Notes under the pieces: generated by a model
Database searches by the model: none
Seen by the model: only the letters and a program-made list of their open reading frames with translations
Told to the model about the DNA's origin: nothing
In this document: in pieces, positions 6,950-32,144 of the stretch
Position numbering within the stretch: position 1 is the first letter of the stretch
Layout of the letters: the number at the start of each line of letters is the position of its first letter
Source of the DNA: Verrucomicrobiota bacterium
GTDB taxonomy: Bacteria > Verrucomicrobiota > Verrucomicrobiia > Limisphaerales > UBA9464
DNA length: 34,194 nucleotides
Assembly (NCBI GenBank): GCA_947471985.1
Contig: CANIZL010000074.1
Location: forward strand, 1-34,194
Reading direction: 5' to 3'
Translations under genes and position numbers: made by a program

Positions 6950-8728
6950 TTACAGCGCCGGATTGCGCGGGAATTTGGCGTAGGGCAGGCGCGCCGCCCG
7001 ATAGGCCAAGCGGTCGGCCCGGATCGCCGGCGGCGATGGAAACGCCTCCGCGGCGCTCGCCCCCACCAGATCATCCTGGTCAATGCCATCGCCCGAAACG
7101 CCCACCGCGCCGATGAGAACCCCGTTGCGGTACAAGGGAAATCCACCGGGGAAGATCGTGATGCCGTTGGGCAAATTCCCGTTGATGGCCGGGCCGGGTT
7201 TCACGAGGCCGGGTTCATCGAAGGGATCCGCGGGAATCCCCACTCCCACCGGCGTCGGCGTGAGGGCGCCATTCAGCGGATTTTCCACTCCGTAGGCCAA
7301 GCGGGAAAAGCGCTCCTGCAGGCCGTGAAAAATCCCCGGAGAGGTATTGCGAATTCCCGGCGGAAAGAGGCCTTGGGCCAAAAAGCCCACGGTTCGCGAA
7401 CTGAACGCCCGCGTGTCGTCGCTGAAGAACAGGGCCGTCCGCGCTTTCTGCACGGCCACGTCCCACGAGAACCGCGTCGTATCCGGCGAGGTACAAATCA
7501 CCCCCAGCACCGGCGGCGCAGCCCCGTCCTGATCGGGGTTGCCCACCACGGCGATGAACACCTGCACGGGCACGCCCCGGGGCAGTCGGATACCCGCGCG
7601 CGTGGTCCGGGCCCGGGCCGCGCCCCGGGCGAGAATGTCCCGCACTTCCTCGGCCTTCAGCCGAAGCTGTCCGCGAATGGTGTCGTTGGCCGTCGGCGCA
7701 TCCAGCAAGGCGGGGTCGGACTGAATCGGCTGCCGTTCCTCGCCCTGGACGCCGCCAATCTGGAGGGTCGGAAACGCGAGTGCCGGGGGTGCGACGAGGG
7801 GGAACTCACTCAAGGCGGCCCCCAATTCCGGGCCCAAGGCGGGCATTCGTGCCGCGGGTCGGATCGGGCTTTCGATGTAGGCCAACGCCACGCCACCGGC
7901 GAAGACCTTCGACCCGAGAATGCGGGACGCCGGGGCAAACCCAATTTGTCCGGCGAGGGCCACCTCCTCATCCACATCGGACGCCCGCACCAACTCCGGT
8001 GAAATCGCCAACTCGTAGAGATACAACCCGCCCGTGATCGCATCCGCCACGGGGACGCGGCTGGTCCCCAGTTGCAAGGTCCGGGTCCGCTCGGGCAACG
8101 GGGCGCCCACTTCCTCGTCGCCCGCCACGCCGAGTCCGCCCACCAATTCGCCGTTCTTGTAAAGCGGAACACCGCCGTTGGCTCCGGCCAATCCGCCGGT
8201 GAAGGGGATCGGTACGGGACCGCCATTCAAACCGTTGGTGAGACCCGCGACGTATCCGGCGGGATCCTTGAACCGATTGACGTCGGAGAACTGAAAGTTG
8301 CTGAAGTTGACGCCCACCAACGGGCCCGGCGGTTTGTTGGCCACGCCCGGTGGGAAATTCTGCTGCACGATGAATCCGGCGGTGCGCGTGCTGAACGCGT
8401 GCTGGGAACTCGAAAGAAAGCTCGCCGTGCCCGCTTTGCCGATGGCATTCCGCAACGCCGCCCGAAACTTCGCGTCCCCGCGATCGGGCGCGGGATTCAC
8501 GGACCACACCCCGCAGAGGTAACCTTCGCGATCCGCCACGGCGATCACCGCGTTGGTCTGGATCGGGTTGCCCGCGTACTCCACCGCCCGTGCGGCCGCC
8601 TGCCGAACGACCTGCTGAATGTCCCCCACGGTCAATCGCTCCGCCGCGGAAAGCCCCAACGCCCCGGCGCCGAAGCCCGCGATTGCCGCGAGTGTCCGCC
8701 CGACATTTTGGTCCCAGCGTCGTTTCAT
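6950..8728 (-). CDS. Exported tandem GlcG/HbpS-like (haem-degrading/haem-binding fold) protein
   Basis: A 592-residue protein starting at ATG 8728, chosen because a signal-like stretch follows (MKRRW, then AAIAGFGAGALGLSAAE) and gagg lies 3-4 bases before it. Two GlcG/HbpS (DUF336) type units are visible. Unit 1 (about 28-270) has DIQQVVRQAAARAVEY, VIAVADREGYLCGV and GGVPLYKNGELVGGLGVAGD. Unit 2 (about 320-590) has VRDILARGAARAR, VFIAVVGNPDQDGA and GGFPLYRNGVLIGAVGVSGD. In the family, PLY-NG-L-IGG-GVSGD is the hallmark, and HbpS members bind haem and sense redox state. Large insertions separate the core strands. The gene is divergent from the porin-cytochrome operon across only 44 bases, which suggests a shared periplasmic redox role; that role is inference. 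Confidence 0.85.
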   Translation of the reverse strand: MKRRWDQNVGRTLAAIAGFGAGALGLSAAERLTVGDIQQVVRQAAARAVEYAGNPIQTNAVIAVADREGYLCGVWSVNPAPDRGDAKFRAALRNAIGKAGTASFLSSSQHAFSTRTAGFIVQQNFPPGVANKPPGPLVGVNFSNFQFSDVNRFKDPAGYVAGLTNGLNGGPVPIPFTGGLAGANGGVPLYKNGELVGGLGVAGDEEVGAPLPERTRTLQLGTSRVPVADAITGGLYLYELAISPELVRASDVDEEVALAGQIGFAPASRILGSKVFAGGVALAYIESPIRPAARMPALGPELGAALSEFPLVAPPALAFPTLQIGGVQGEERQPIQSDPALLDAPTANDTIRGQLRLKAEEVRDILARGAARARTTRAGIRLPRGVPVQVFIAVVGNPDQDGAAPPVLGVICTSPDTTRFSWDVAVQKARTALFFSDDTRAFSSRTVGFLAQGLFPPGIRNTSPGIFHGLQERFSRLAYGVENPLNGALTPTPVGVGIPADPFDEPGLVKPGPAINGNLPNGITIFPGGFPLYRNGVLIGAVGVSGDGIDQDDLVGASAAEAFPSPPAIRADRLAYRAARLPYAKFPRNPAL

Positions 8729-8772: not shown

Positions 8773-11379
8773 ATGAAGTCCGGTCGCTACCAGGCGCCCT
8801 TCCGGTTGTTCCGTGCCGCCGTCCCGGCGGGTCACGATCGAGGGATCTGGTGGCTTTGGGGCACGGGTGTCGTGGCCCTGACCCTGCCGGCGACCGCACT
8901 GGCCGACGCGGAAACCGGCCCTCCGGTCACCCAACGTCGAACGGTGCTGGCGCCGACGGCCGGCGCGGCCCGGATCCATGCCCTGCACGCTCAGCGCACG
9001 GTGCGCCCGACATCGACGCTCCCACCGACGCTCGCACCGACGCTCCCACCGCGGGACCCGGCCGCTCCGCACGCCCATCAACGCGTGCATTCCGGATCGC
9101 CGCCGATCTCGCCCGCCGAACGCAACATTGAAGGCGGCCGACTACCCGTCGCGCCGCATCCGGAGCGGGAACCCGAAACCGTGTGGCGTCGCCAGCGCTG
9201 GATCAGCACCAACACACCCGCCTTGCCGCCGGGGACTTTCAATCCCGATCCCGGTGGACGCGCCCCGGCGACGACGACCGCTGAGGCGCCGTTCTTTCAG
9301 TCTCTTCCCGCCCCGCTCCCGGAATACCGCGGCCCCGAGCTCGGCGAGGCCCGTCCGGTCGGTGCCGGGCTTGTTCTGCCGTGGTGGCGGCGCGACACTC
9401 TGGTTCCCACGCCCCTCGCCGATCCCACCACCCGCGCCACGGATGCGGCGCCCTATGAATCGGATCCAGTCACGGGCCAACTTGCCCTGCCCCGTCACGG
9501 CGTGCGGGCGAACGAGAAATTGGAATTCCAAAGCCACGGCACTCCGGAGTATCCGCTGTCGGGAAATCCGGCGAACTGGCCACCGAACACCCGTGCCGTG
9601 CCGGACCGCTATCGCGAGGTTGGTTTCGGCATCCCGGACGGGCGCGGTGGCTTCACGCCCTGGCGACGCTATGACCGGGGTGAGACCAGCGAAATTCCCT
9701 TCGCCCAAAACACGCCGCACCTCTGGCATCCCTATCAGCAATCCCGACTGAAGGGCGATCTGCCGGTTTGGGGTCAGGACAAATTCCTCAACCTCACCGC
9801 CACCGCCGACACCATCGCCGAGTTCCGCCGGGTCCCCGTGCCCGCGAACGTCAGCACTGCGCAGCCCGATGCCGCGGAATTCTTCGGCCGCCCGCGACAG
9901 TTGACCCTGCAGCAGTATCTCGGCTTCAGCGCGGAACTCTTCGCCGGCGAAACCGTCTTCCAACCCCCGCATTGGACCTTCAAGGTCATGCCGGTCCTCA
10001 ACGTCAACTACAACCTCGTTCAGGAGAACAATCTCCTCGGCCCCGATCCGCGCGGCATCGACGGCGGCCCCAATTCACCGGCCCCGCCCAACGGGTTCGT
10101 CACCCATCCCCACGACGTCGGCACCTTGTTGAACGGCCAGCTCACCCATCTGCCCAGCGATCTGGCCGGCACCCGCTACACCGACCGCACCCGCGTGGAT
10201 ATCGCGTTGCAGGAATACTTTTTCGAATACCACGTGGCGGATCTCAGCGACAATTACGACTTCATGGCGATCAAGGCGGGTAATCAAGCGTTCAATCAGG
10301 ACTTCCGTGGATTCCTCTTCAACGACGTCAATCTCGGGGGACGGTTTTTCGGGAACTACGACAACAACCGCTGGCAGTACAACGTGCTCGGTTTCGATAT
10401 GCGGGAGAAGGACACCTTCTCCGGGCTCAACTCCTTTGATCAACGCGATCAACGCGTTTTTCTCGCGAATGCCTACCGACAGGATTTCCTGACCCCGGGC
10501 TACACCGCGCAGTGGAGCGTGGCTGCCAACCTCGATGCCGGAGGCACACAGTATGACCGCTCCGACAGCATCGTCCGCCCGGAACCTTTCGGCACCGTGC
10601 GGCCCCACGGCTTGGAAGCGTTTTATCTCGGCTGGGCCGGCGAAGGGCACATCGGGCGCTGGAACATCAGCCACCAGTTCTACCAAGCCCTCGGGCACGA
10701 CGAATTCAACCAACTCTCGGGCCACGCCGTGGACATCAATGCCCAGATGGCGTCACTGGAAGTCAGCTTGGACCGGGATTGGATCCGTTATAAGGGCTCG
10801 TTCTTCTGGGCCAGTGGTGACGGAAACGTCGACGACGGGACGGCGCGGGGGTTCGACACCATTCTGGACAACCCGAACTTCACCGGCGGGCCGTTCAGCT
10901 ATTATGTGCGCCAGGGCATCAACCTCGCGGGCACGGACGTCGCCCTAAAGCAACCCGGATCCCTGGTGCCCAGCCTCCGCACCAGCAAAACCCAGGGCCA
11001 GGCCAGCTTCGTCAATCCGGGCATTTTCATCTTCTCCGCCGGGGTGGATTTCGATGTGACCCCGAAGGTGCGATCCTTCCTGAATTTCAGTTACCTCCGC
11101 TTCCAGGAAACCGAGCCGCTCAAGACCGCGCTCATGCAGGACCGCATTCGCAACGAGCTGGGCTACGACCTGAGCCTCGGTTTTCAATACCGCCCGTTCC
11201 TCACCGAAAACATCGTCATCACCGCCGGCTTCGGCGTGTTGCTGCCCGGCGAGGGTTTCCGGGATATCTATCGGCGCACCGCGGACCCGGTGTTGTCGCT
11301 GGCCCCCGGTTCCGTGCGCGCCGGCCGGGTGGAGACCTTTTTCTACAGCGGCGTCATCGCCTTGAACTTCACCTACTGA
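8773..11379 (+). CDS. Putative outer-membrane beta-barrel (porin-like) protein of a porin-cytochrome operon
   Basis: An 868-residue protein starting at ATG 8773; the upstream open extension overlaps the divergent gene and is not used. The N-terminus has a basic region and a hydrophobic core (GIWWLWGTGVVALTLPATAL) ending ADA, a signal peptide. Residues about 55-330 are Pro/Arg-rich with a PTLPPTLAP repeat. From about residue 380 the sequence alternates aromatic and polar residues in amphipathic strands (WTFKVMPVLNVNYNLVQEN, FLNFSYLRFQ, LSLGFQYRPF) and ends in ALNFTY, the terminal aromatic signature of outer-membrane barrels. No CXXCH motif is present. A decaheme cytochrome starts 5 bases after its stop. 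The barrel could sheath that cytochrome, as in known porin-cytochrome conduits. An alginate-export-type or other porin is the alternative. Confidence 0.78.
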   Translation: MKSGRYQAPFRLFRAAVPAGHDRGIWWLWGTGVVALTLPATALADAETGPPVTQRRTVLAPTAGAARIHALHAQRTVRPTSTLPPTLAPTLPPRDPAAPHAHQRVHSGSPPISPAERNIEGGRLPVAPHPEREPETVWRRQRWISTNTPALPPGTFNPDPGGRAPATTTAEAPFFQSLPAPLPEYRGPELGEARPVGAGLVLPWWRRDTLVPTPLADPTTRATDAAPYESDPVTGQLALPRHGVRANEKLEFQSHGTPEYPLSGNPANWPPNTRAVPDRYREVGFGIPDGRGGFTPWRRYDRGETSEIPFAQNTPHLWHPYQQSRLKGDLPVWGQDKFLNLTATADTIAEFRRVPVPANVSTAQPDAAEFFGRPRQLTLQQYLGFSAELFAGETVFQPPHWTFKVMPVLNVNYNLVQENNLLGPDPRGIDGGPNSPAPPNGFVTHPHDVGTLLNGQLTHLPSDLAGTRYTDRTRVDIALQEYFFEYHVADLSDNYDFMAIKAGNQAFNQDFRGFLFNDVNLGGRFFGNYDNNRWQYNVLGFDMREKDTFSGLNSFDQRDQRVFLANAYRQDFLTPGYTAQWSVAANLDAGGTQYDRSDSIVRPEPFGTVRPHGLEAFYLGWAGEGHIGRWNISHQFYQALGHDEFNQLSGHAVDINAQMASLEVSLDRDWIRYKGSFFWASGDGNVDDGTARGFDTILDNPNFTGGPFSYYVRQGINLAGTDVALKQPGSLVPSLRTSKTQGQASFVNPGIFIFSAGVDFDVTPKVRSFLNFSYLRFQETEPLKTALMQDRIRNELGYDLSLGFQYRPFLTENIVITAGFGVLLPGEGFRDIYRRTADPVLSLAPGSVRAGRVETFFYSGVIALNFTY
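9013..9048 (+). repeat. Three 12-bp tandem repeats in the porin-like gene
   Basis: Units at 9013-9024, 9025-9036 and 9037-9048 (ccgacgctccca with one or two changes) encode repeated S/P-T-L-P/A. They lie in the Pro-rich segment just after the signal peptide and are a likely site of length variation by slippage. They keep the reading frame. Confidence 0.8.
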
Positions 11380-11384
11380 CGACC

Positions 11385-14300
11385 ATGGAGAATCGATCCA
11401 TCCGTAATCCACCAGGCTTCCGCCCCTCAGCGGGCGCGGGACGGTTCGGTTGGCTGATCGCCGTCTGGATCGCTCTCATCGCCGCGCTTCCGCTGAAGGC
11501 CGCCGCGCCGCGGGACACGGATCCCGGAACATCGGGTCCGCGGATCTCCGTGCCCGTGTCAGACCCGCTTCCCGCTCCCCCGCCGAAATCCGCCTCAGTC
11601 ATCGATCAATCCCCGGAAACGGCCCTGCGCAATAGCCGCGGGTGTCTGGAATGCCACCGAACCACCGACGCCCATTCGATGCATCTTTCGCCCAACGTGG
11701 TGTTGAGCTGTGTGGACTGCCATGGCGGCAATCCGGCCCCGGGTCTCACCCAGCGCCAGGCGCACGTGCCGCCCCGCAATCCGATCTTCTGGGAATCCTC
11801 CGCCAATCCCAGCGAATCCTCCGTGCTCCTGAATCACGAATCCGCGGAATTCATTCAGTTCGTCAATCCCGGGGATCTGCGCGTTGCGGATCGGGCCTGC
11901 GGCACGTGTCACGGTGATTCCGTGGCGCACGTGCGTCACAGTATCATGCGGCACGGGGCCATGCTCTGGGGCGCGGCGCTATACAACAACGGCGCGTCCG
12001 CGGAGAAGAACTATCGCTACGGCCAGGCGTACGGCCTCGACGGCGTCCCGCTGAGGCTGACGAGTCCGGTGCCCGTCACCCCCGAGATGACCCGCACCTA
12101 CGGCATCCTGCCCTACCTCGAACCCCTGCCCCGTTTCACCATCGGTCAGCCATCAAACCTGCTGCGCATTTTCGAAAAGGGCGGCGAACGCCAGCTGCCC
12201 CTGGGCATCCCCAATCCCGCGGAGCCACCAGGAAAACCCGCGCGCCGCCTCAGCGAACGCGGGCTCGGCACGCTGAATCGCATCGATCCCGTCTATCTCA
12301 ATCTGCAGAAAACCCGCCTTCACGATCCCCTGCTGGATTTCATGGGCAGCAACAATCATCCGGGCGATTACCGCTCCAGCGGCTGCTCGGCGTGTCACGT
12401 CGTCTACGCCAATGATCGTTCCCCGGTGAATTCCGATTACTGGAGCAAGTACGGTCATCAAGGCCTAAGCTTTTCCCTGGACCCCACCATCCCGAAGAAC
12501 GAGCGCGGGCATCCGATCAAGCACGTGTTCACGCGGGCCATCCCCACTTCGCAGTGCATGAACTGCCACATGCATCAGGGCAATCTCTTCGTAAATCCCT
12601 TCCTTGGTTACACCTGGTGGGATCAGGAATCCGACGCGGAATTCATGTATCCCCACCCGGCGAATCCCCTGGCCGACGACGCCCATTTCCGGGGCCAACA
12701 GACCCGGGACGCGCTGTTGAAACAACGGAACCCCACCGAGGCCCAGATCGCCGCGTCGAACCGCGAAAACCCCGAGGCCGCCGCCACGCGCGGGTTGTGG
12801 AGTGATCCTGATTTCCTCGATAAATCCGCCGAGCTGAATCCGCGCCTGAAGCAGACGCAGTTCGCCGATTACCACGGACACGGCTGGATGTTCCGCGCGG
12901 TCTTCAAGAAGGACAAACACGGAAATCTTCAGGACCTCAACGACGACCTCATCCCCCACGATGATGCGCACAAATGGGAGAAGGCGGTGCATTTGAAGGA
13001 CGTGCATCTCGCCCGCGGCATGCACTGTGTGGATTGCCATTTCCTCCACGACATGCACGGCAACGGCCTGCTCTACGGCGAGCCCCGCACGGTCACCTCC
13101 ATCGAATGCGTCGACTGCCACGGCACCGTGAAATCGCGGCCCACGCTGATCACCAGCGGTTCCGGCGGAACCTACGATGCCGCCACCCGAACCCAGAAGG
13201 GCATCGATCTCCTCAAGGACAGCAACACCTCATGGGGACCGCGCTTCTACTGGGAAGGCCGCAAACTCTTTCAACGCAGCTCGCTCGCACCGGATCGAAT
13301 CTGGGAAATTCCGCAGACGGTGGACACCATCGACCCGAAGAGTTCCCGATATAACGCCAAGTCGGCGTACGCGAAGACCCTCCGCCGCGACGGTCGTTCC
13401 TGGGGCGATGTGCCCGGCGGGGTGGTCAACGCCGGTCCGGCAGACCGGGGTCCGTTGAAGGAGGATCGCAACACGGAATGCGCGCGGGAACTGGCCCACG
13501 ACAACTCGAGTGTCAGTTGTCAGGTTTGTCACACCAGCTGGGCCACGAGCTGCTTTGGCTGCCATCTCCCGATGCGCGCCAATCAGCGCGTGGCGGGGAA
13601 CAAGTTCGAGGGCGTCATGACCCGCAATTACACCACCTACAATCCCCAGGTGGTTCGCGATGACGTGTTCCAATTGGGCATCGATGCCTCGTACAAGGGC
13701 CACCGGCTGGGCGTGCTGCGGTCCTCCAGTGCGGTGATCGTCGGCTCACAAAACGCGAACCGGGAGTGGATCTACAGCCAACAACAGACGGTCAGCGCCG
13801 AAGGCTTCAGTGGCCAGGCGTTCAACCCGCACTTCCCGCATACCACCAGCTCAGTGGGCACCACCAAGAACTGCACCGATTGTCATCTAAGTCAGGACAA
13901 CGACAACCATGCCTGGATGACGCAGTTGCTCGGGCTGGGCACGGGCACGGTGAATTTCTTCGGTCGCCACGCCTACGTCGGCACCGGCACCGGGGGCTTT
14001 GCCGCGGTCGTGTGGACGGAACGTGAGGAGCCGCAGGCCGCGTACGGCAGCCATCTGCAGCGGTACGCGTATCCGGACAACTACCGGCGCCACGTCGAAC
14101 AGGAACGCGGCGAATTGCGCGAGGCCCACGAACATCACGCCCGCGAGATTCTCGATCTAACCCTGCGCGGAGAATATCTCTACACCGCCAACGGCGCCGA
14201 TGGGTTTGAGGTCTTCGATGTGGCCAACATCGATCAAAAGGGTTTCAGCGAACGCATCGTTACGGCCCCGGTTTCGCCGCTGGGTCAACGCACCTGGGTG

Positions 14301-15482
14301 CGCACCAAGTATGCCACGAGCGTCATTCTGCCGAGCACGCTGGGCATCGATCCCCTGCGCAAACACAATCCCCCAACCACACCTCATCCCGAACACGGCG
14401 CGGTCTCCACCGACAACGAGGAGCAGGACGTGAGCGCGCTGTACGCCTTCGTGTTCATCACGGACCGCGAGGAGGGCCTGGTGATCACCAGCGTCGGCAC
14501 GCTGGTCGATGGCAATCCGGCGAATAATTTTCTGTCCGGCCCGGGATCCACGGAGACCACCCGTCGCTTTGATGCGGAGGGTCGACTGCACGGAGCCGAG
14601 CACGGCTACCTGGCCGGCAATCATCTCTGGGTGGTCGGGGAAAACGGACTCTTCAATGTCCGCATTCTGAATGAAAAAAAGGAACTGGCACCGCGCGTCG
14701 TTGGTTCATTGACCGCCGGGCTCAATCATCCGCGCGCGATCGCCGTGCAATTCCGCTACGCGTACATCAGCGATGCGGACGGCCTGAAGGTGGTGGATAT
14801 TTCCGAACCGGAGAATCCCCGCCTGATCTCCGAGGCCACGATACCGCTCGCGCATGCCGGACGACTCTATGTCGGGAAGACGTACGCCTATGTTCCGGCC
14901 GGGGCGGACGGTCTGGCCATCATCGACGTGGAGAATCCGGCGCGTCCACGGCTGCGGCAGAAATTCACGGCGGACGGCGCCATCAACGATGCCCGCGCGG
15001 TGCAGGTGGGGAGCATCAATGCCTCCATGTTCGCCCTGTTGGCGGATGGCCGCAACGGACTGCGGGTGATCCAGTTGGTCTCGCCTGATACCGTGCCGGG
15101 TCACATGGGCTTCAGTCCGCCGCCCGCGCCCCGACTCATCGCGACGTATCCCTCCCACACGCCCGCGGTGGCCGTCAGTCGCGGGCTGGATCGCGATCGC
15201 GTGGTGGATGAATCCGGCAATCAGACGGTGGTCTTCGGCCGACGCGGCAGCCGGCCCTTCAATGAAGCCGAATTTGCGCAATTCATCCGGCACTTCGACC
15301 GCGCCACCGGTGGACACACCGGACCCGAATATCGCGTGGCGGATGTCCAGGGCGGCCCCGGCCCGCTGCGCACCAAAGGCGGTGAGGCCTTGAAGCCGGA
15401 TCGGGAATTCCGGGGCGAACCTCCCATCCAATATGGCGCTCCCCGACAAGGCGAACGTCTGGTGCGAAGGGGCCGCGAATGA
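11385..15482 (+). CDS. Exported decaheme c-type cytochrome with C-terminal LVIVD-repeat region
   Basis: A 1365-residue protein starting at ATG 11385. The signal segment is WLIAVWIALIAALPLKAAA. Ten CXXCH haem-attachment motifs have their first Cys at about residues 87, 109, 172, 334, 391, 548, 575, 712, 723 and 830, so ten haems c are expected after periplasmic maturation. From about 926 to 1245 the protein carries LVIVD-type repeats (EYLYTANGADGFEVFDVANI, YAYISDADGLKVVDISEP, YAYVPAGADGLAIIDVENP), which form propeller-like domains in other secreted proteins. A charged tail follows. The gene lies between a porin-like gene (5-base gap) and an NHL gene (ATGA overlap), so the three are surely cotranscribed. 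Electron transfer across or at the outer membrane is the best hypothesis. A periplasmic oxidoreductase for a nitrogen, sulfur or metal substrate is also possible. Confidence 0.92.
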   Translation: MENRSIRNPPGFRPSAGAGRFGWLIAVWIALIAALPLKAAAPRDTDPGTSGPRISVPVSDPLPAPPPKSASVIDQSPETALRNSRGCLECHRTTDAHSMHLSPNVVLSCVDCHGGNPAPGLTQRQAHVPPRNPIFWESSANPSESSVLLNHESAEFIQFVNPGDLRVADRACGTCHGDSVAHVRHSIMRHGAMLWGAALYNNGASAEKNYRYGQAYGLDGVPLRLTSPVPVTPEMTRTYGILPYLEPLPRFTIGQPSNLLRIFEKGGERQLPLGIPNPAEPPGKPARRLSERGLGTLNRIDPVYLNLQKTRLHDPLLDFMGSNNHPGDYRSSGCSACHVVYANDRSPVNSDYWSKYGHQGLSFSLDPTIPKNERGHPIKHVFTRAIPTSQCMNCHMHQGNLFVNPFLGYTWWDQESDAEFMYPHPANPLADDAHFRGQQTRDALLKQRNPTEAQIAASNRENPEAAATRGLWSDPDFLDKSAELNPRLKQTQFADYHGHGWMFRAVFKKDKHGNLQDLNDDLIPHDDAHKWEKAVHLKDVHLARGMHCVDCHFLHDMHGNGLLYGEPRTVTSIECVDCHGTVKSRPTLITSGSGGTYDAATRTQKGIDLLKDSNTSWGPRFYWEGRKLFQRSSLAPDRIWEIPQTVDTIDPKSSRYNAKSAYAKTLRRDGRSWGDVPGGVVNAGPADRGPLKEDRNTECARELAHDNSSVSCQVCHTSWATSCFGCHLPMRANQRVAGNKFEGVMTRNYTTYNPQVVRDDVFQLGIDASYKGHRLGVLRSSSAVIVGSQNANREWIYSQQQTVSAEGFSGQAFNPHFPHTTSSVGTTKNCTDCHLSQDNDNHAWMTQLLGLGTGTVNFFGRHAYVGTGTGGFAAVVWTEREEPQAAYGSHLQRYAYPDNYRRHVEQERGELREAHEHHAREILDLTLRGEYLYTANGADGFEVFDVANIDQKGFSERIVTAPVSPLGQRTWVRTKYATSVILPSTLGIDPLRKHNPPTTPHPEHGAVSTDNEEQDVSALYAFVFITDREEGLVITSVGTLVDGNPANNFLSGPGSTETTRRFDAEGRLHGAEHGYLAGNHLWVVGENGLFNVRILNEKKELAPRVVGSLTAGLNHPRAIAVQFRYAYISDADGLKVVDISEPENPRLISEATIPLAHAGRLYVGKTYAYVPAGADGLAIIDVENPARPRLRQKFTADGAINDARAVQVGSINASMFALLADGRNGLRVIQLVSPDTVPGHMGFSPPPAPRLIATYPSHTPAVAVSRGLDRDRVVDESGNQTVVFGRRGSRPFNEAEFAQFIRHFDRATGGHTGPEYRVADVQGGPGPLRTKGGEALKPDREFRGEPPIQYGAPRQGERLVRRGRE

Positions 15483-16750
15483 AAGGGGTTGTCCCTACCA
15501 TTCTGCTCGCGTGGCTGGGCACGACGTTTGTGGTGACGGCGCAGGAGAGCGTCCGGACCCTCGCGGGACGGGCCGCGGAAACGGGCGCGCAGAATGGCCC
15601 CGGAGCGATCAGTCGCTTCAACGATCCCGCCGGTCTGGCCGTGGATGCCGCGGGCATCCTCTATGTCGCCGACTCCGCCAATCACTGCGTGCGGCGCATT
15701 GGCCTCGACGGCCTCGTGACCACGGTGATCGGCCGGGCTGGCGAGGCCGGTGCCGCGGATGGCACCACGGTGACCGCCCGTCTGGATTCGCCCTCGGCGG
15801 TGGCGGTGGGAGCGGACGGAACGTTGTTTATCGCTGACACCGGCAACCACACACTCCGACGATTTCGTCAGGGGCTACTCACCACGCTGGCCGGTGTGGC
15901 GGGCGATCCCGGTCCCACCAATGGCGTTCCCGGTACCGCCCGGTTCAATACCCCTTTAGGCCTGGCGGTCACCACCGCCGGAGACGTGTGGGTGGCGGAT
16001 TCCGGGAATCATTCGATCCGACGCGTCTCGCCCGCCGGAGTGGTGGAGACGTTGGCGGGCGCGTCCGGGGAGTGGGGTGCTGTGGACGGAACGGGCAGTT
16101 CGGCGCGCTTCAATGGTCCGGTCGGCGTCGCCCTCGCGGCCGACGGAGCTCTGGTGGTCGCAGATTCTCTGAACCACGCCGTGCGAGCCGTAACGCCCGC
16201 GGGGGTCGTAACCACAATTGCCGGTCAACTGGGCTCCGACGGTTGGCAGGACGGTCCGGTCACCGTCGCCCGCTTCTGCCAACCGGCCGAACTTCAATTC
16301 GATGCCTTCGGAAATCTCTTCGTCGTGGACGCTTTTTATCACCGGCTCCGCCGGCTCGATACCAAGGGTCTGGTGACCACCGTCGCCGGACATGTGGGTG
16401 AGGAAGGCAGCGCGGACGGAGCGAATGGACGCGCCCGCTTTTTCAATCCTTACGGCGTGGCGGTCCGCCCGAACGGCGCGGTGGTCGTGAGCGACACCTA
16501 TAATGCCACCGTGCGGGAAGTGATTCCGCCCTTCCAGCAGGGCTTGGTCCGCCACCCGGAAGGGCCCGTGCTCCACTGGGAATCGGTGGTGGGTCTGACG
16601 TATCAAGTGATGCAGTCCACGGAACTGGGCGGGCCGTGGCAGCCCCTCACCGCCCCACGGGTCGCGACGGGACGCATCTCGCAGTGGCCGATGGCCGGCT
16701 TCGGAACCACCTCGGGTTCGACTTGGCTGCGGGTGCAACGGGCGGAATAG
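15479..16750 (+). CDS. Secreted NHL-repeat beta-propeller protein
   Basis: A 423-residue protein whose ATG overlaps the cytochrome stop (ATGA), showing coupling. The signal peptide is at the N-terminus (VVPTILLAWLGTTFVVTAQ). About six NHL repeats follow, each with a pattern like FNDPAGLAVDAAGILYVADS plus VTTVIGRAGEAGAADG, at about residues 35-350; they would close a six-bladed propeller. The last 75 residues (WESVVGLTYQVMQSTELGG) form a small beta domain I associate with secreted verrucomicrobial proteins. NHL propellers usually bind proteins or RNA or act as scaffolds. Here an outer-surface or periplasmic scaffold for the decaheme protein is plausible. No catalytic residues are evident. Confidence 0.88.
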   Translation: MKGVVPTILLAWLGTTFVVTAQESVRTLAGRAAETGAQNGPGAISRFNDPAGLAVDAAGILYVADSANHCVRRIGLDGLVTTVIGRAGEAGAADGTTVTARLDSPSAVAVGADGTLFIADTGNHTLRRFRQGLLTTLAGVAGDPGPTNGVPGTARFNTPLGLAVTTAGDVWVADSGNHSIRRVSPAGVVETLAGASGEWGAVDGTGSSARFNGPVGVALAADGALVVADSLNHAVRAVTPAGVVTTIAGQLGSDGWQDGPVTVARFCQPAELQFDAFGNLFVVDAFYHRLRRLDTKGLVTTVAGHVGEEGSADGANGRARFFNPYGVAVRPNGAVVVSDTYNATVREVIPPFQQGLVRHPEGPVLHWESVVGLTYQVMQSTELGGPWQPLTAPRVATGRISQWPMAGFGTTSGSTWLRVQRAE

Positions 16751-18100: not shown

Positions 18101-18979
18101 ATGCTCCGCCGCGAATCGCCCTGCAAGATCAATCTCCTGCTCAACATCCTGGGCCGGCGACCGGATGGTTTCCACGAACTGGAGACCCTGTTCCATCACG
18201 TTCCGCTGACGGATGAACTTCGTTTTGCACGCGCCGAGGCCGAGGTGGTGCTGACGTGCAACGATCCCGCCCTGCCGGTGGACGGCACCAATCTGGTGCA
18301 CCGGGCGGCCACGCGATTTCTGGCGGCGGCCGGTTTGGAGGGAGCGGGCGTGCGCCTGCATCTGGAAAAACGACTCCCGCTCGCGGCCGGTTTGGGCGGC
18401 GGATCCGCCAATGCCGCGCACACGCTGCTGGGACTCAACGAACTTTTCGGTCACCCGCTCAGCGCCGAGGTGCTGGACACCCTGGCCGCCGGGCTGGGGT
18501 CCGATGTGAATTTTTTCCTGCAGGACCGGCCGGCACTGGCCACGGGTCGCGGGGAGCAAGTGATCTCCCTGGAACCGTTTGCCGCTTTGAAAGGCACCGG
18601 GATCCTGCTCGTCCACCCGGGATTCGGCGTCGCCACACCCTGGGCGTTCGCCGAGTTGAAGAAATATCCGGCCGCATTGGCGGGACGACCCGGCCGCGCC
18701 GCGGAACTCGCCGAGCTGCTGCGGCAGGGCGATCTGACCGCCGCGGGAAACGCCCTGTACAACTCACTCGAGGCTCCGGTCCTGGACAAATATCCGGTCC
18801 TCCGGCTCTATCAGGAGTTTTTCCGCCGCCACGGGGCTTGGGGCTCATTAATGAGCGGGAGCGGTTCCACTACCTTTGCCCTGTTTGCCACCCCGGACGC
18901 CGCCCAGGCAGCCGTCGAGCCGTTTCAACGAGAATTTGGGCCGGCCGGCTGGCTGCGGACGACGGCTCTGACGTCCTGA
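18101..18979 (+). CDS. ispE: 4-diphosphocytidyl-2-C-methyl-D-erythritol kinase
   Basis: A 292-residue GHMP kinase, normal in length. It phosphorylates CDP-methylerythritol in the MEP route to isopentenyl diphosphate. Visible landmarks are the N-terminal CKINLLLNILGRRPDGFHEL with the catalytic Lys, the ATP-binding glycine loop LPLAAGLGGGSANAA, GSDVNFFLQ with the active-site Asp, and the C-terminal LMSGSGSTTFALF motif. ATG 18101 is chosen because the family begins here; the longer open frame runs through a terminator. No ribosome-binding site precedes it. It is convergent with squalene-hopene cyclase, the downstream consumer of the isoprenoids it helps to make, 27 bases away. Confidence 0.95.
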   Translation: MLRRESPCKINLLLNILGRRPDGFHELETLFHHVPLTDELRFARAEAEVVLTCNDPALPVDGTNLVHRAATRFLAAAGLEGAGVRLHLEKRLPLAAGLGGGSANAAHTLLGLNELFGHPLSAEVLDTLAAGLGSDVNFFLQDRPALATGRGEQVISLEPFAALKGTGILLVHPGFGVATPWAFAELKKYPAALAGRPGRAAELAELLRQGDLTAAGNALYNSLEAPVLDKYPVLRLYQEFFRRHGAWGSLMSGSGSTTFALFATPDAAQAAVEPFQREFGPAGWLRTTALTS

Positions 18980-29840: not shown

Positions 29841-31187
29841 CTACGGGGAGATCACCAGCTTCCAAATCAAGCCGAGCCCGCCGGCTCCCAACACCACGGG
29901 GATGATCCCCCATTTCCCGCGCACCATTCCGACGAACGCAAGGGCACAGGTCACCAGGCCAAACCAGTTCACCGGATTTCCCACGGGAAAGAGCACCTGC
30001 AGCCCGAACCAGACGGCCAGGTTCAAAATCACGCCCACCACCGCGGCGGTGATCGTCGACAGCGCCGCGGAGAGTCGCTGATTGCCGCGCAACTGTTCGA
30101 TGTGGGGCGCTCCCAGAAAGATCCACAGGAAGCAGGGGAGAAACGTGGTCCAAGTAGTCATGAGCGCCCCCCATGTAGCCATCCCCAAGGGCGAAAGCGG
30201 TTGCGGAAACTTCCATCCGCCGAGGAAACCGACGAACTGCAAAACCATGATCAACGGTCCCGGCGTGGTCTCCGCCAATCCCAGCCCGTCGAGCATCTGC
30301 CCGGCAGTGACCCAGCCGTAGTTCTCAACGGCCTGTTGCGAAACATACGGCAGCACCGCATACGCCCCGCCGAAGGTGACCATGGCCGCTTTGCTGAAGA
30401 AGAGCCCCTGTTGGACGAGCAGATGGTCGAACCCCAACCAAAGACCCGTCAGCAGGATGGGAATCCACCAGAGCGAGAGACACACCGCGGACACCTTAAG
30501 CGCCCGGCTCCAGGAGGGCCTCGCGTGGTCGGGCACAGTGTCCCCGTCGCCTAGGACGCTGGGGCCGTCTTTCTTGGAACCGTGTCCCGTGAGGACCACA
30601 AACTTCGCGGGCCACAGCTTTCCGCCCAGGAAGCCGAGGATGCCCGCTCCCAAAATGATCGCCGGAAAGGGAACGTGGAATACGAAGATCAGAACGAACG
30701 CGACCAGGGCCAATCCCCACAGGACGGTATTTTTCAAAGCCCGGTTGCCGATGCGGAAGAGGGCGGCGACGACAATCGCCAGCACCGCGGGTTTCAGTCC
30801 GTCGAATACCCCGGATAGCCACTTCACGTCACCGTACAACGCGTAAACGACGCTCAATCCCCAAAGAATGAGCGCGGAGGGAAGCACAAAAAGCGCCCCG
30901 GCGACAATGCCGCCCCAGGTCCGATGCAGCAGCCACCCGACATAGATGGACAGTTGTTGCGCCTCGGGGCCGGGCAAAAGCATGCAGAAGTTCAAGGCGT
31001 GCAAGAAACGCGCCTCACTGATCCAGCGCCGCTTTTCCACCAGCTCCGTGTGCATGATGGCGATCTGGCCGGTTGGCCCACCAAAGCTGATGAATCCGAG
31101 CTTCAGCCAAAACCGGAAGGCCTCCTGGAAGCTGGGAGGCTGCGGCGGTGGTTCGCCTTGGGCCGAAGGAGGCGGTTCTGGATTCAT
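29841..31187 (-). CDS. chrA: Chromate efflux transporter ChrA (long, two-domain form)
   Basis: A 448-residue inner-membrane protein of the CHR family with about 10-12 membrane helices, which pumps chromate out of the cell. The duplicated halves are visible. Half 1 has FWLKLGFISFGGPTGQIAIM and LNFCMLLPGPEAQQL. Half 2 has FFSKAAMVTFGGAYAVLPYV and GLGLAETTPGPLIMVLQFVG. The FGG and PGP motifs are family hallmarks. ATG 31187 overlaps the chrB stop (ATGA), so it is second in a chrBA operon. Length and motif content are complete. Confidence 0.96.
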   Translation of the reverse strand: MNPEPPPSAQGEPPPQPPSFQEAFRFWLKLGFISFGGPTGQIAIMHTELVEKRRWISEARFLHALNFCMLLPGPEAQQLSIYVGWLLHRTWGGIVAGALFVLPSALILWGLSVVYALYGDVKWLSGVFDGLKPAVLAIVVAALFRIGNRALKNTVLWGLALVAFVLIFVFHVPFPAIILGAGILGFLGGKLWPAKFVVLTGHGSKKDGPSVLGDGDTVPDHARPSWSRALKVSAVCLSLWWIPILLTGLWLGFDHLLVQQGLFFSKAAMVTFGGAYAVLPYVSQQAVENYGWVTAGQMLDGLGLAETTPGPLIMVLQFVGFLGGWKFPQPLSPLGMATWGALMTTWTTFLPCFLWIFLGAPHIEQLRGNQRLSAALSTITAAVVGVILNLAVWFGLQVLFPVGNPVNWFGLVTCALAFVGMVRGKWGIIPVVLGAGGLGLIWKLVISP

Positions 31188-32122
31188 GGCCGGAGTGAGC
31201 GGTACAGCGCTTCAAAACAATCACCGCCCCGCGCCAGCAATTGTTCGTCGGAGAGTCCCGCCTTGGCCCAGCCCTGGAGCAGGCGTTCGAGACCGACACA
31301 TTCCGTGGTCTGGAACTTTCCATCCGCGAGGTCACTGTCGTGCACCATCTCGGCCATCCGGAGCACGGCTTTATCCAGAATCCCGAAGCGCTTCACCAGC
31401 GTCTCGAACGTGCAGTCATCACCGTGGTGCGAAAACTCCACCTCAAACATATCGTAGGGAATCGCCGTCGGGTGCCGTTTCGGATCGGTGCCGAATACGA
31501 ACGTGGCTTTGGGATCGATGAACTTGCGGATCAGCCACGCGGAACCCACGCGGTCAATCTGCGGACGCGGCCGGGTCAGCCACGTGCGTCCCAAAAACTT
31601 CTTAACGGACAGCCGGGCTGCCGCGCTGCCTTTGGCTCCACCTAATGCGGCAGCGCGTTGCAGCAGCATCTGCGCGTCCTGCGCCCGGGGACAGTCGAAG
31701 AAATCGATCTTCCGAATCTCTTCAAACTGTCGGCGATGTTTTTCCAGCTCGGCCGGAAAGGCAGCGGTCTTCCTCCGCTTGCTCCCGGCCACCAGTTTGG
31801 TCAGTTCGCTCGCCAGGGCAGCGTAATCGTTCGCCCGGATCTCATGGAACTGACCGACGATGTCCGCCCGTGCCAGGCCCTCAACGTCAGTGACCCGGAG
31901 GAGTGTGGCTTCACCGCCGGAGTCACGCACCTGTTGGGCCAGCCATTGGAAACGTTCGTAGTGATCGGAGGTATCGGGCAGGAGCGAGGCGGACGTCTTG
32001 AAAGGCAGGGCACCGGATTTCTTGAGCTGCCGCCAAAGGCTCACACGGGCGGACGTTCGCCGGGCCGGGAGCGAATACAGAAGGAGCAGCCAGGGATCCT
32101 GACCTGCTTTTGTTGTTGTCAT
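31184..32122 (-). CDS. chrB: Chromate resistance protein ChrB
   Basis: A 312-residue protein. ChrB acts as a chromate-responsive regulator of chr operons in several bacteria. The N-terminal domain has WLLLLYSLPARRTSARVSLW. The C-terminal ChrB domain has IDFFDCPRAQDAQ, then RTWLTRPRPQIDRVGSAWLI and FVFGTDP. The His/Cys-rich stretch FSHHGDDCTFETLVKRF is conserved in the family. ATG 32122 is chosen over an upstream GTG at 32137. The gene is first in the operon and divergent from the DUF1259 gene. A GTAA-N6-TTAC dyad just upstream may be its binding site. Confidence 0.93.
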   Translation of the reverse strand: MTTTKAGQDPWLLLLYSLPARRTSARVSLWRQLKKSGALPFKTSASLLPDTSDHYERFQWLAQQVRDSGGEATLLRVTDVEGLARADIVGQFHEIRANDYAALASELTKLVAGSKRRKTAAFPAELEKHRRQFEEIRKIDFFDCPRAQDAQMLLQRAAALGGAKGSAAARLSVKKFLGRTWLTRPRPQIDRVGSAWLIRKFIDPKATFVFGTDPKRHPTAIPYDMFEVEFSHHGDDCTFETLVKRFGILDKAVLRMAEMVHDSDLADGKFQTTECVGLERLLQGWAKAGLSDEQLLARGGDCFEALYRSLRP

Positions 32123-32130
32123 AACGTTCC

Positions 32131-32144
32131 GTAACACATATTAC
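32131..32144. promoter_or_regulatory. GTAA-N6-TTAC dyad in the chrB promoter region
   Basis: gtaacacatattac is a 4+4 inverted repeat, 9-22 bases upstream of the chrB ATG. The minus strand contains TAATAT (32143-32138), a possible -10, with a weak TTCACT 15 bases before it. A repressor here would cover the promoter. A 14-base dyad can arise by chance, so this is a candidate only. Confidence 0.35.

Follow-up and report, generated by a model that had tools for sequence, protein, structure and literature searches.

The stretch of DNA analyzed here (the window, 34,194 nucleotides) is an entire contig, CANIZL010000074.1 (C74), of the Verrucomicrobiota bacterium assembly GCA_947471985.1, a genome (G000) of 6.38 Mb in 180 contigs that is 96% complete. 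On its forward strand, a run of three genes encodes a predicted outer-membrane barrel protein (BAR, 8773..11379, 868 aa from the ATG at 8773), an exported decahaem cytochrome with a C-terminal beta-propeller (CYT, 11385..15482, 1365 aa), and a secreted NHL-repeat protein (15479..16750). The barrel stop lies 5 bases from the cytochrome start, and the cytochrome stop and NHL start overlap as ATGA (15479-15482). An earlier reading made from these letters (the sequence-only reading) had proposed a porin-cytochrome electron conduit made of these three parts; the gap, the overlap, the ten CXXCH motifs, and the coordinates were all recovered, and Pfam found LVIVD in the cytochrome and NHL in the third protein, confirming the observation of a barrel, decahaem, and NHL gene run. 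A gene for a secreted HbpS-like protein (6950..8728; PF03928, two stretches, 53.3 bits) lies on the reverse strand, divergent from the barrel gene. The longest listed open-reading frame (ORF) of the barrel begins at GTG 8590 and that of the HbpS-like gene at GTG 8899, for which ATG 8728 was judged by eye to be the probable start.

BAR has an apparent signal peptide, contains 0 Cys, and ends in ...IALNFTY. No Pfam or NCBIfam family matched at E up to 1, and a PDB sequence search with the barrel alignment (A3, 67 rows) gave nothing useful. The AlphaFold2 (AF2) model, with a mean predicted local distance difference test (pLDDT) score of 74.6 and most barrel blocks at 84-98, predicts 18 strands, each of at least 10 residues, in a barrel part spanning aa ~337-868. 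Its best fold match was AlgE (5d5d, Z 27.6, root-mean-square deviation (rmsd) 2.8, 361 aligned, 12% identity), followed by OprD-family porins, so that the barrel proposed from the letters is borne out by the model. Ahead of the barrel, aa ~45-290 form an extension of ~250 Pro-rich residues (18% Pro) that is modeled at low confidence and holds a conserved FNPDPG stretch in A3.

CYT contains exactly ten CXXCH motifs, at aa 87, 109, 172, 334, 391, 548, 575, 712, 723, and 830, in the stretch 11643..13886 (motif starts at 11643, 11709, 11898, 12384, 12555, 13026, 13107, 13518, 13551, and 13872), and a six-frame scan of the window found a single CXXCH outside it, at 18877, its frame overlapping ispE. 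All ten are invariant across the 63-row cytochrome alignment (A4), and 20 further His are kept in at least 90% of its rows, together ample for bis-His ligation. Pfam LVIVD scored 54.3 bits (cut-off 20.2), and the propeller (aa ~855-1250, 13947..15134), with AF2 blocks mostly at 74-94 and some lower, was matched by VIA-align to the YVTN surface-layer propeller 1l0q (Z 25.7, rmsd 2.3, 259 aligned). The rows listed in a fold search with the CYT model were propeller proteins; the haem part had no fold match there, which does not in itself point to a new fold. Membership of the ExtM family (NF040943) was rejected, as CYT scored 46.5 bits and the protein of Verrucomicrobia bacterium IMCC26134 72.8 bits against a curated cut-off of 800. 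A phage search returned no CYT match. Identity of CYT to the window protein (best segment) was 58-64% in five genomes where that of the housekeeping protein Tex was 61-66%; Tex was not found in the sixth genome compared.

The pairing of BAR with CYT was followed in a panel of 145 relatives searched for the cytochrome at E 1e-10, in an evenly drawn sample of 387 Verrucomicrobiota genomes, and in named loci, the best 80 of 146 relatives from a named-genome scan, on which all counts out of 80 are based. CYT matched in 39 genomes of the panel, 33 over the haem part and 6 in the propeller part only (G010, G023, G075, G087, G114, and G132). BAR was present in 32 of the 33 haem-part genomes and never without CYT among the 145; in the lone exception, G033, the cytochrome begins at base 1 of its contig. 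Both genes were on one contig in 30 of these 32 genomes, G030 and G052 being excepted. The phylum sample gave CYT in 11 genomes and BAR in the identical 11, neighboring on one contig in every case, showing a system that is uncommon in the phylum. BAR was adjacent (same strand, barrel end -700 to +1500 bases from the cytochrome) in 66 of the 80 named loci; nine had too little upstream sequence, and five fell outside this definition, one (L123) with an adjacent BAR cut off by the contig end and four (L117, L125, L128, and L131) with BAR elsewhere in the genome. At L036, L038, L050, and L051, 720-870 bases separate the two genes, and at least three of these intervals contain a small unrelated ORF. 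A correlation of r 0.87 was obtained between the BAR and CYT distance matrices (54 pairs), as against at most 0.17 in 500 permutations. BAR and CYT are thus near-obligate partners, the opposite of the finding that the sequence-only reading had named as fatal to it, namely cytochrome orthologues that never co-occur with the barrel gene. Record titles of the named loci were mostly Verrucomicrobiota, with Proteobacteria for L066 and L119 and merely 'bacterium' for L077, L116, and L122. Some titles of metagenome-assembled genomes look doubtful, given loci close to Verrucomicrobiota ones: the two Proteobacteria, L081, L101, L126, and L127 (Akkermansia muciniphila), and L093 (Methylacidimicrobium fagopyrum).

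A second decahaem protein, Cys-rich at its N-terminus and with a single hydrophobic helix (the inner-membrane decahaem), lies directly upstream of BAR in 9 of the 80 named loci (L085, L087, L094, L097, L099, L100, L101, L103, and L136), and relatives of it occur at greater distance in some others. In the complete genome of IMCC26134 (L103), the run starts with a divergent tetrahaem gene, a NADH/FAD/2Fe-2S reductase, and a protein with a cyclic nucleotide monophosphate (cNMP) domain and 4Fe-4S sites, and continues with a 275-aa membrane protein, the inner-membrane decahaem, the barrel, and the decahaem-propeller. After the conduit genes of this strain come DsbD-like, FixG-like, and fused COX1-FixO genes of the cbb3 type (L103, 12919-18297), a hint of low-oxygen use. 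The module genes were inside the fetched flanks of 20 to 24 named loci, depending on the gene. In the window's own genome, the reductase, cNMP/4Fe-4S protein, dihaem-b-type protein, inner-membrane decahaem, and tetrahaem are all on contig C9. This inner-membrane-anchored decahaem, which co-occurs with the BAR-CYT pair, and the tetrahaem leave unsupported the sequence-only claim that distinct periplasmic and surface cytochromes are lacking, and CYT appears not to act alone. A further multihaem protein, with eight CXXCH in a 731-residue frame, is encoded on contig C78 (L163, 5053-7245).

The inner-membrane decahaem was found in 31 of the 33 CYT genomes of the panel, the two without a match being 57% and 66% complete. 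Of three matches that occurred without CYT, one was strong, in a genome 54% complete, and the other two were both weak and partial. In the 387-genome sample, haem-part matches were confined to the same 11 genomes as CYT, 8 of them full-length and 3 starting at profile positions 96, 99, and 189 (Fisher p 1.6e-21 for the association). Across 22 sequences the cNMP protein conserves 16 Cys, which would suffice for four 4Fe-4S clusters, and the 2Fe-2S Cys of the reductase are retained in 18/18, with FAD, NAD, and Fer2 domains in IMCC26134 and G000. The 275-aa b-type protein has two WX3HX13H stretches in 18/18 sequences and SGXXG in 16/18, and the two features occurred together in 0/2000 shuffles. 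With E allowed up to 10, Pfam returned only weak matches to it (DUF4405 in 15/18, best E 0.001; Ni_hydr_CYTB in 12/18; Ferric_reduct in 2/18), and a PDB sequence search with it returned chance rows only.

A plasmid search extended the system to sphingomonads. CYT homologues with 40-43% identity over about 90% were found in 12 Sphingobium records and 1 Sphingopyxis record, together with barrels of about 36% identity; four other plasmid records match the propeller part only. When one cytochrome from Sphingobium and one from Sphingopyxis were aligned with CYT, each of the ten haem sites had its counterpart, as did 14 of the 19 free His tested. The 12 Sphingobium records also have the inner-membrane decahaem, and 5 of them the b-type protein. 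In the one Sphingobium cluster examined, on pMSHV of S. herbicidovorans, the order is a 5-haem c554-type cytochrome, HbpS-like, barrel, and decahaem-propeller, with the inner-membrane decahaem, a dihaem-b protein, and an 825-aa pyridine-nucleotide oxidoreductase + cNMP + 4Fe-4S protein nearby; in this fusion, the oxidoreductase belongs to a different Pfam family from the verrucomicrobial reductase. The locus tags on pMSHV are B6S01_RS18415 (HbpS-like), RS18420 (barrel), RS18425 (decahaem-propeller), and RS18455 (the fusion). Sphingopyxis pMC4 has the 5-haem, HbpS-like, barrel, and decahaem-propeller genes, and both clusters thus have a 5-haem cytochrome in place of the 4-haem one. The Sphingobium inner-membrane decahaem (L173, 16150-17949) carries an N-terminal FHA/YscD-like domain, as against the Cys-rich stretch of the verrucomicrobial protein. 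Among the 13 barrel-bearing records, mobility typing gave 2 conjugative and 11 non-mobilizable plasmids; the conjugative-typed carriers are S. herbicidovorans (L173, 5036-21325) and Sphingopyxis indica (L174, 12415-22114), whose clusters comprise decahaem-propeller, barrel, and HbpS-like genes.

Among the neighboring genes, the NHL gene (Pfam NHL 118.8 bits, five NHL stretches) is accessory. It lies directly downstream of CYT in 30 of the 80 named loci and was neither annotated nor found by Pfam among the scanned cluster proteins of pMSHV and pMC4. It was therefore rejected as a core part, and the gene order expected in other genomes held for the barrel and cytochrome and not for the NHL protein as a third conduit component. 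The commonest neighbor tested was the HbpS-like gene, present in 39 loci, 36 of them with it upstream and divergent, and since HbpS-like genes also adjoin the barrels in the Sphingobium and Sphingopyxis clusters, the protein is common to two phyla. ECF sigma, rhaM, and ispE were rejected as linked genes, with 0 matches in the named loci at E 1e-15. A promoter scan found 0 promoter-like sites, and a terminator scan found 4 terminator-like sites vs 7.5 expected. Genes for a ChrB-like protein and a ChrA chromate transporter adjoin at 29844-32137 of the window.

From the co-occurrence of BAR, CYT, and the inner-membrane decahaem, together with the content and linkage of the module, we propose, with a probability of about 0.6, an electron conduit through both membranes that draws on NAD(P)H in the cytosol and has BAR and CYT as its outer-membrane end. 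NADH, the presumed physiological donor, would reduce the FAD and 2Fe-2S of a membrane-anchored reductase, from which electrons would pass to four 4Fe-4S clusters in the cNMP-domain protein and on to two b haems held by the two WX3HX13H stretches of the small membrane protein. The b haems would reduce the inner-membrane-anchored decahaem, and electrons would cross the periplasm, perhaps via the tetrahaem, to a BAR/CYT assembly, presumably surface-exposed, and leave for an acceptor on the cell surface or outside it, such as humics, Fe(III), or another oxidant. What the analysis supports of the sequence-only interpretation is the barrel, its pairing with the decahaem, and the idea of a porin-cytochrome conduit; the missing cytochrome pair and the NHL core were not supported, and it had overlooked the conserved divergent HbpS-like gene, the non-generality of NHL, and the partner genes on another contig.

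Several observations weigh against this proposal. Model confidence is low over the haem part of CYT (mean pLDDT of the CYT model, 63), and in G000 the input module (C9) is on a different contig from BAR and CYT (C74). Shared phylogeny contributes to both the matrix correlation and the co-occurrence, making these tests less than independent. Six genomes without CYT (G225, G271, G272, G276, G305, and G469) match the inner-membrane decahaem solely within profile positions 7-248, and because they match this N-terminal part alone, the Cys-rich region appears to occur in other proteins; counting them, the association has a Fisher p of 2e-17. On pMC4, no inner-membrane decahaem or b-type gene was found in the annotation of 30 kb or in searches of the record, and sphingomonads are mainly aerobes, which weakens a role in anaerobic respiration. 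The geometry of the barrel also counts here, as a C-alpha diameter of 33-34 Å is expected for 18 strands vs about 47 Å for 26, so that there may be no room for a haem wire threaded through it, and the nearest folds to BAR are exporters and substrate porins. These last points, with a weak match of the A4 profile to eight-haem nitrite reductases (E 2e-4, best over profile positions 479-530), would suit an arrangement with no trans-outer-membrane wire, in which BAR is a channel for a substrate or solute and CYT, in the periplasm or at the surface, is a multihaem enzyme that reduces or oxidizes a substrate passing through it. We consider this unlikely, as all ten sites are CXXCH and accompanied by the conserved His, no catalytic signature was recognized in CYT, and a separate inner-membrane decahaem co-occurs.

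The main rival, also judged unlikely, would reverse the current: extracellular Fe(II) or another donor would be oxidized at CYT and its electrons delivered to the quinone pool, through the b-type protein, or to NAD+. The gene content resembles that of PCC4, a candidate conduit of neutrophilic Fe(II) oxidizers whose signature the b-type protein carries, and He et al. modeled PCC4 as an inward, donor-oxidizing route to quinones (He, Barco, Emerson and Roden 2017, PMC5566968). Outward flow is favored because one FeS/b-haem entry carries, in two phyla, NAD(P)H flavoproteins from two distinct families, and because reduction of NAD+ by an external donor such as Fe(II) would be uphill and need energy that no recognized part or coupling device of the module appears to supply. 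An assimilatory role, with the HbpS-like protein, BAR, and CYT serving iron uptake by reducing Fe(III) outside the cell or by handling haem, would account for the frequency of the HbpS-like neighbor, its recurrence in sphingomonads, and the ferric-reductase-like haem-b signature of the b-type protein. No TonB receptor or iron regulator was found among 20 further window ORFs by Pfam scan, or named in the annotated Sphingobium stretch, which includes several hypothetical proteins, and 20 c haems per chain would seem lavish for such a purpose, making this role highly improbable.

If the NAD(P)H-fed outward conduit is real, the cell would dump the reducing power of NADH directly outside via a line that bypasses quinones. 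To our knowledge, outer-membrane conduits are all quinol-fed. With its links to two NAD(P)H flavoprotein families across two phyla, this one would let a cell balance its redox state externally and without the respiratory chain. Verrucomicrobiota are known from soils and humic lakes, and some of them would gain a second electron-transfer route besides the octahaem cluster proposed earlier. The fuller picture, of a NAD(P)H-driven, quinone-bypassing line through both membranes, scattered in Verrucomicrobiota and on large sphingomonad plasmids and with the HbpS-like protein as a core part, is offered tentatively, at somewhat less than even odds. The conduit also suggests a connection between the loosely defined candidate PCC4, the propeller-bearing decahaem, and the HbpS-like protein, and because a whole cluster is on a plasmid of S. 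herbicidovorans MH, the question is directly testable.

We recognized no paper describing a barrel/decahaem-propeller system in a search of open PMC articles, with most subscription papers and bioRxiv preprints outside it. Among known systems, the alginate exporter AlgE shares the barrel fold only and differs in its 12% identity, in the lack of a Pfam match and the long N-terminal extension of BAR, and in the cytochrome partner. MtrCAB, MtoAB, and PioAB likewise place a barrel and a decahaem at the outer membrane; the solved Mtr-type barrel has 26 strands, the MtrA-type cytochrome is small, and Mtr input is from quinol through a CymA-type dehydrogenase, whereas the module linked here is of NADH type. 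With 28 predicted strands given for these systems (Shi et al. 2014, PMC4245776), their 26-28-strand barrel contrasts with the 18 strands of the BAR model. Geobacter Pcc porins (OmbB-OmaB-OmcB) are closer in size, as the 18-22 strands predicted for them (PMC4245776) include the BAR value, but they combine an 8-haem periplasmic with a 12-haem outer-membrane cytochrome, as against 10 + 10 haems here, and the excerpted text mentions no propeller or NADH module. That source also lists Pcc clusters without a separate surface cytochrome, so this absence is not new in itself.

A verrucomicrobial porin-multihaem cytochrome (MHC) pair with eight haems has been described, with homologues listed in IMCC26134 (He et al. 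2017, PMC5615132), and it resembles the present system in joining a porin to a multihaem cytochrome in this phylum. Its octahaem protein has ~260 aa and eight haems, against ten CXXCH in 1365 aa for CYT, and its porin showed no detectable similarity to BAR (hhalign probability 0.1, a weak test of a profile against one sequence). IMCC26134 and G000 also hold another frame of porin size that is immediately preceded by an octahaem gene, with seven CXXCH and one CX4CH, and this second cluster is probably the octahaem system of He et al. In G000 (C5 2674-9550, L162), the octahaem-porin pair is followed by a tetrahaem gene and one for NrfD fused to a cNMP-binding domain, and the cluster is a likely quinol-linked counterpart. 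Octahaem-type porins were found in 76 of the 145 relatives at E 1e-10, and the 42 above 300 bits showed no association with CYT (9/33 vs 33/112, p 1.0). Identity with the octahaem porin-cytochrome conduit (PCC) was rejected on haem number, porin dissimilarity, and independent distribution.

By gene content, PCC4, reported from Proteobacteria and Planctomycetes (PMC5566968), appears to be the nearest system, the porins being compared by description. As described there, it has a porin, a decahaem, and a tetrahaem beside redox genes, and a five-transmembrane protein of the inner membrane that carries SGXXG and two WX3HX13H, the signature of the dihaem-b protein of PCC3 and PCC4 that is also seen here. 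Its subgroup II has a 4Fe-4S (pfam13247) gene before the inner-membrane protein, and in both IMCC26134 and G000, PF13247 is found in the cNMP protein, whose gene is directly upstream of the b-type gene. The three cytochromes of the PCC4 periplasm have 4, 5, and 10 haems, whereas those found here have 4 and 10; no 5-haem frame was present in 20 kb of G000 C9 or 22 kb of IMCC26134, and in the excerpted account of PCC4 no 1300-residue decahaem-propeller is described (PMC5566968). Because the 5-haem cytochrome was not found and the porins were compared by description, we regard the BAR/CYT system as a probable PCC4 variant and not a member. The best reading of these comparisons is that BAR and CYT work like a porin-cytochrome conduit that is filed with none of the Mtr, Geobacter Pcc, octahaem PCC, ExtM, or AlgE types.

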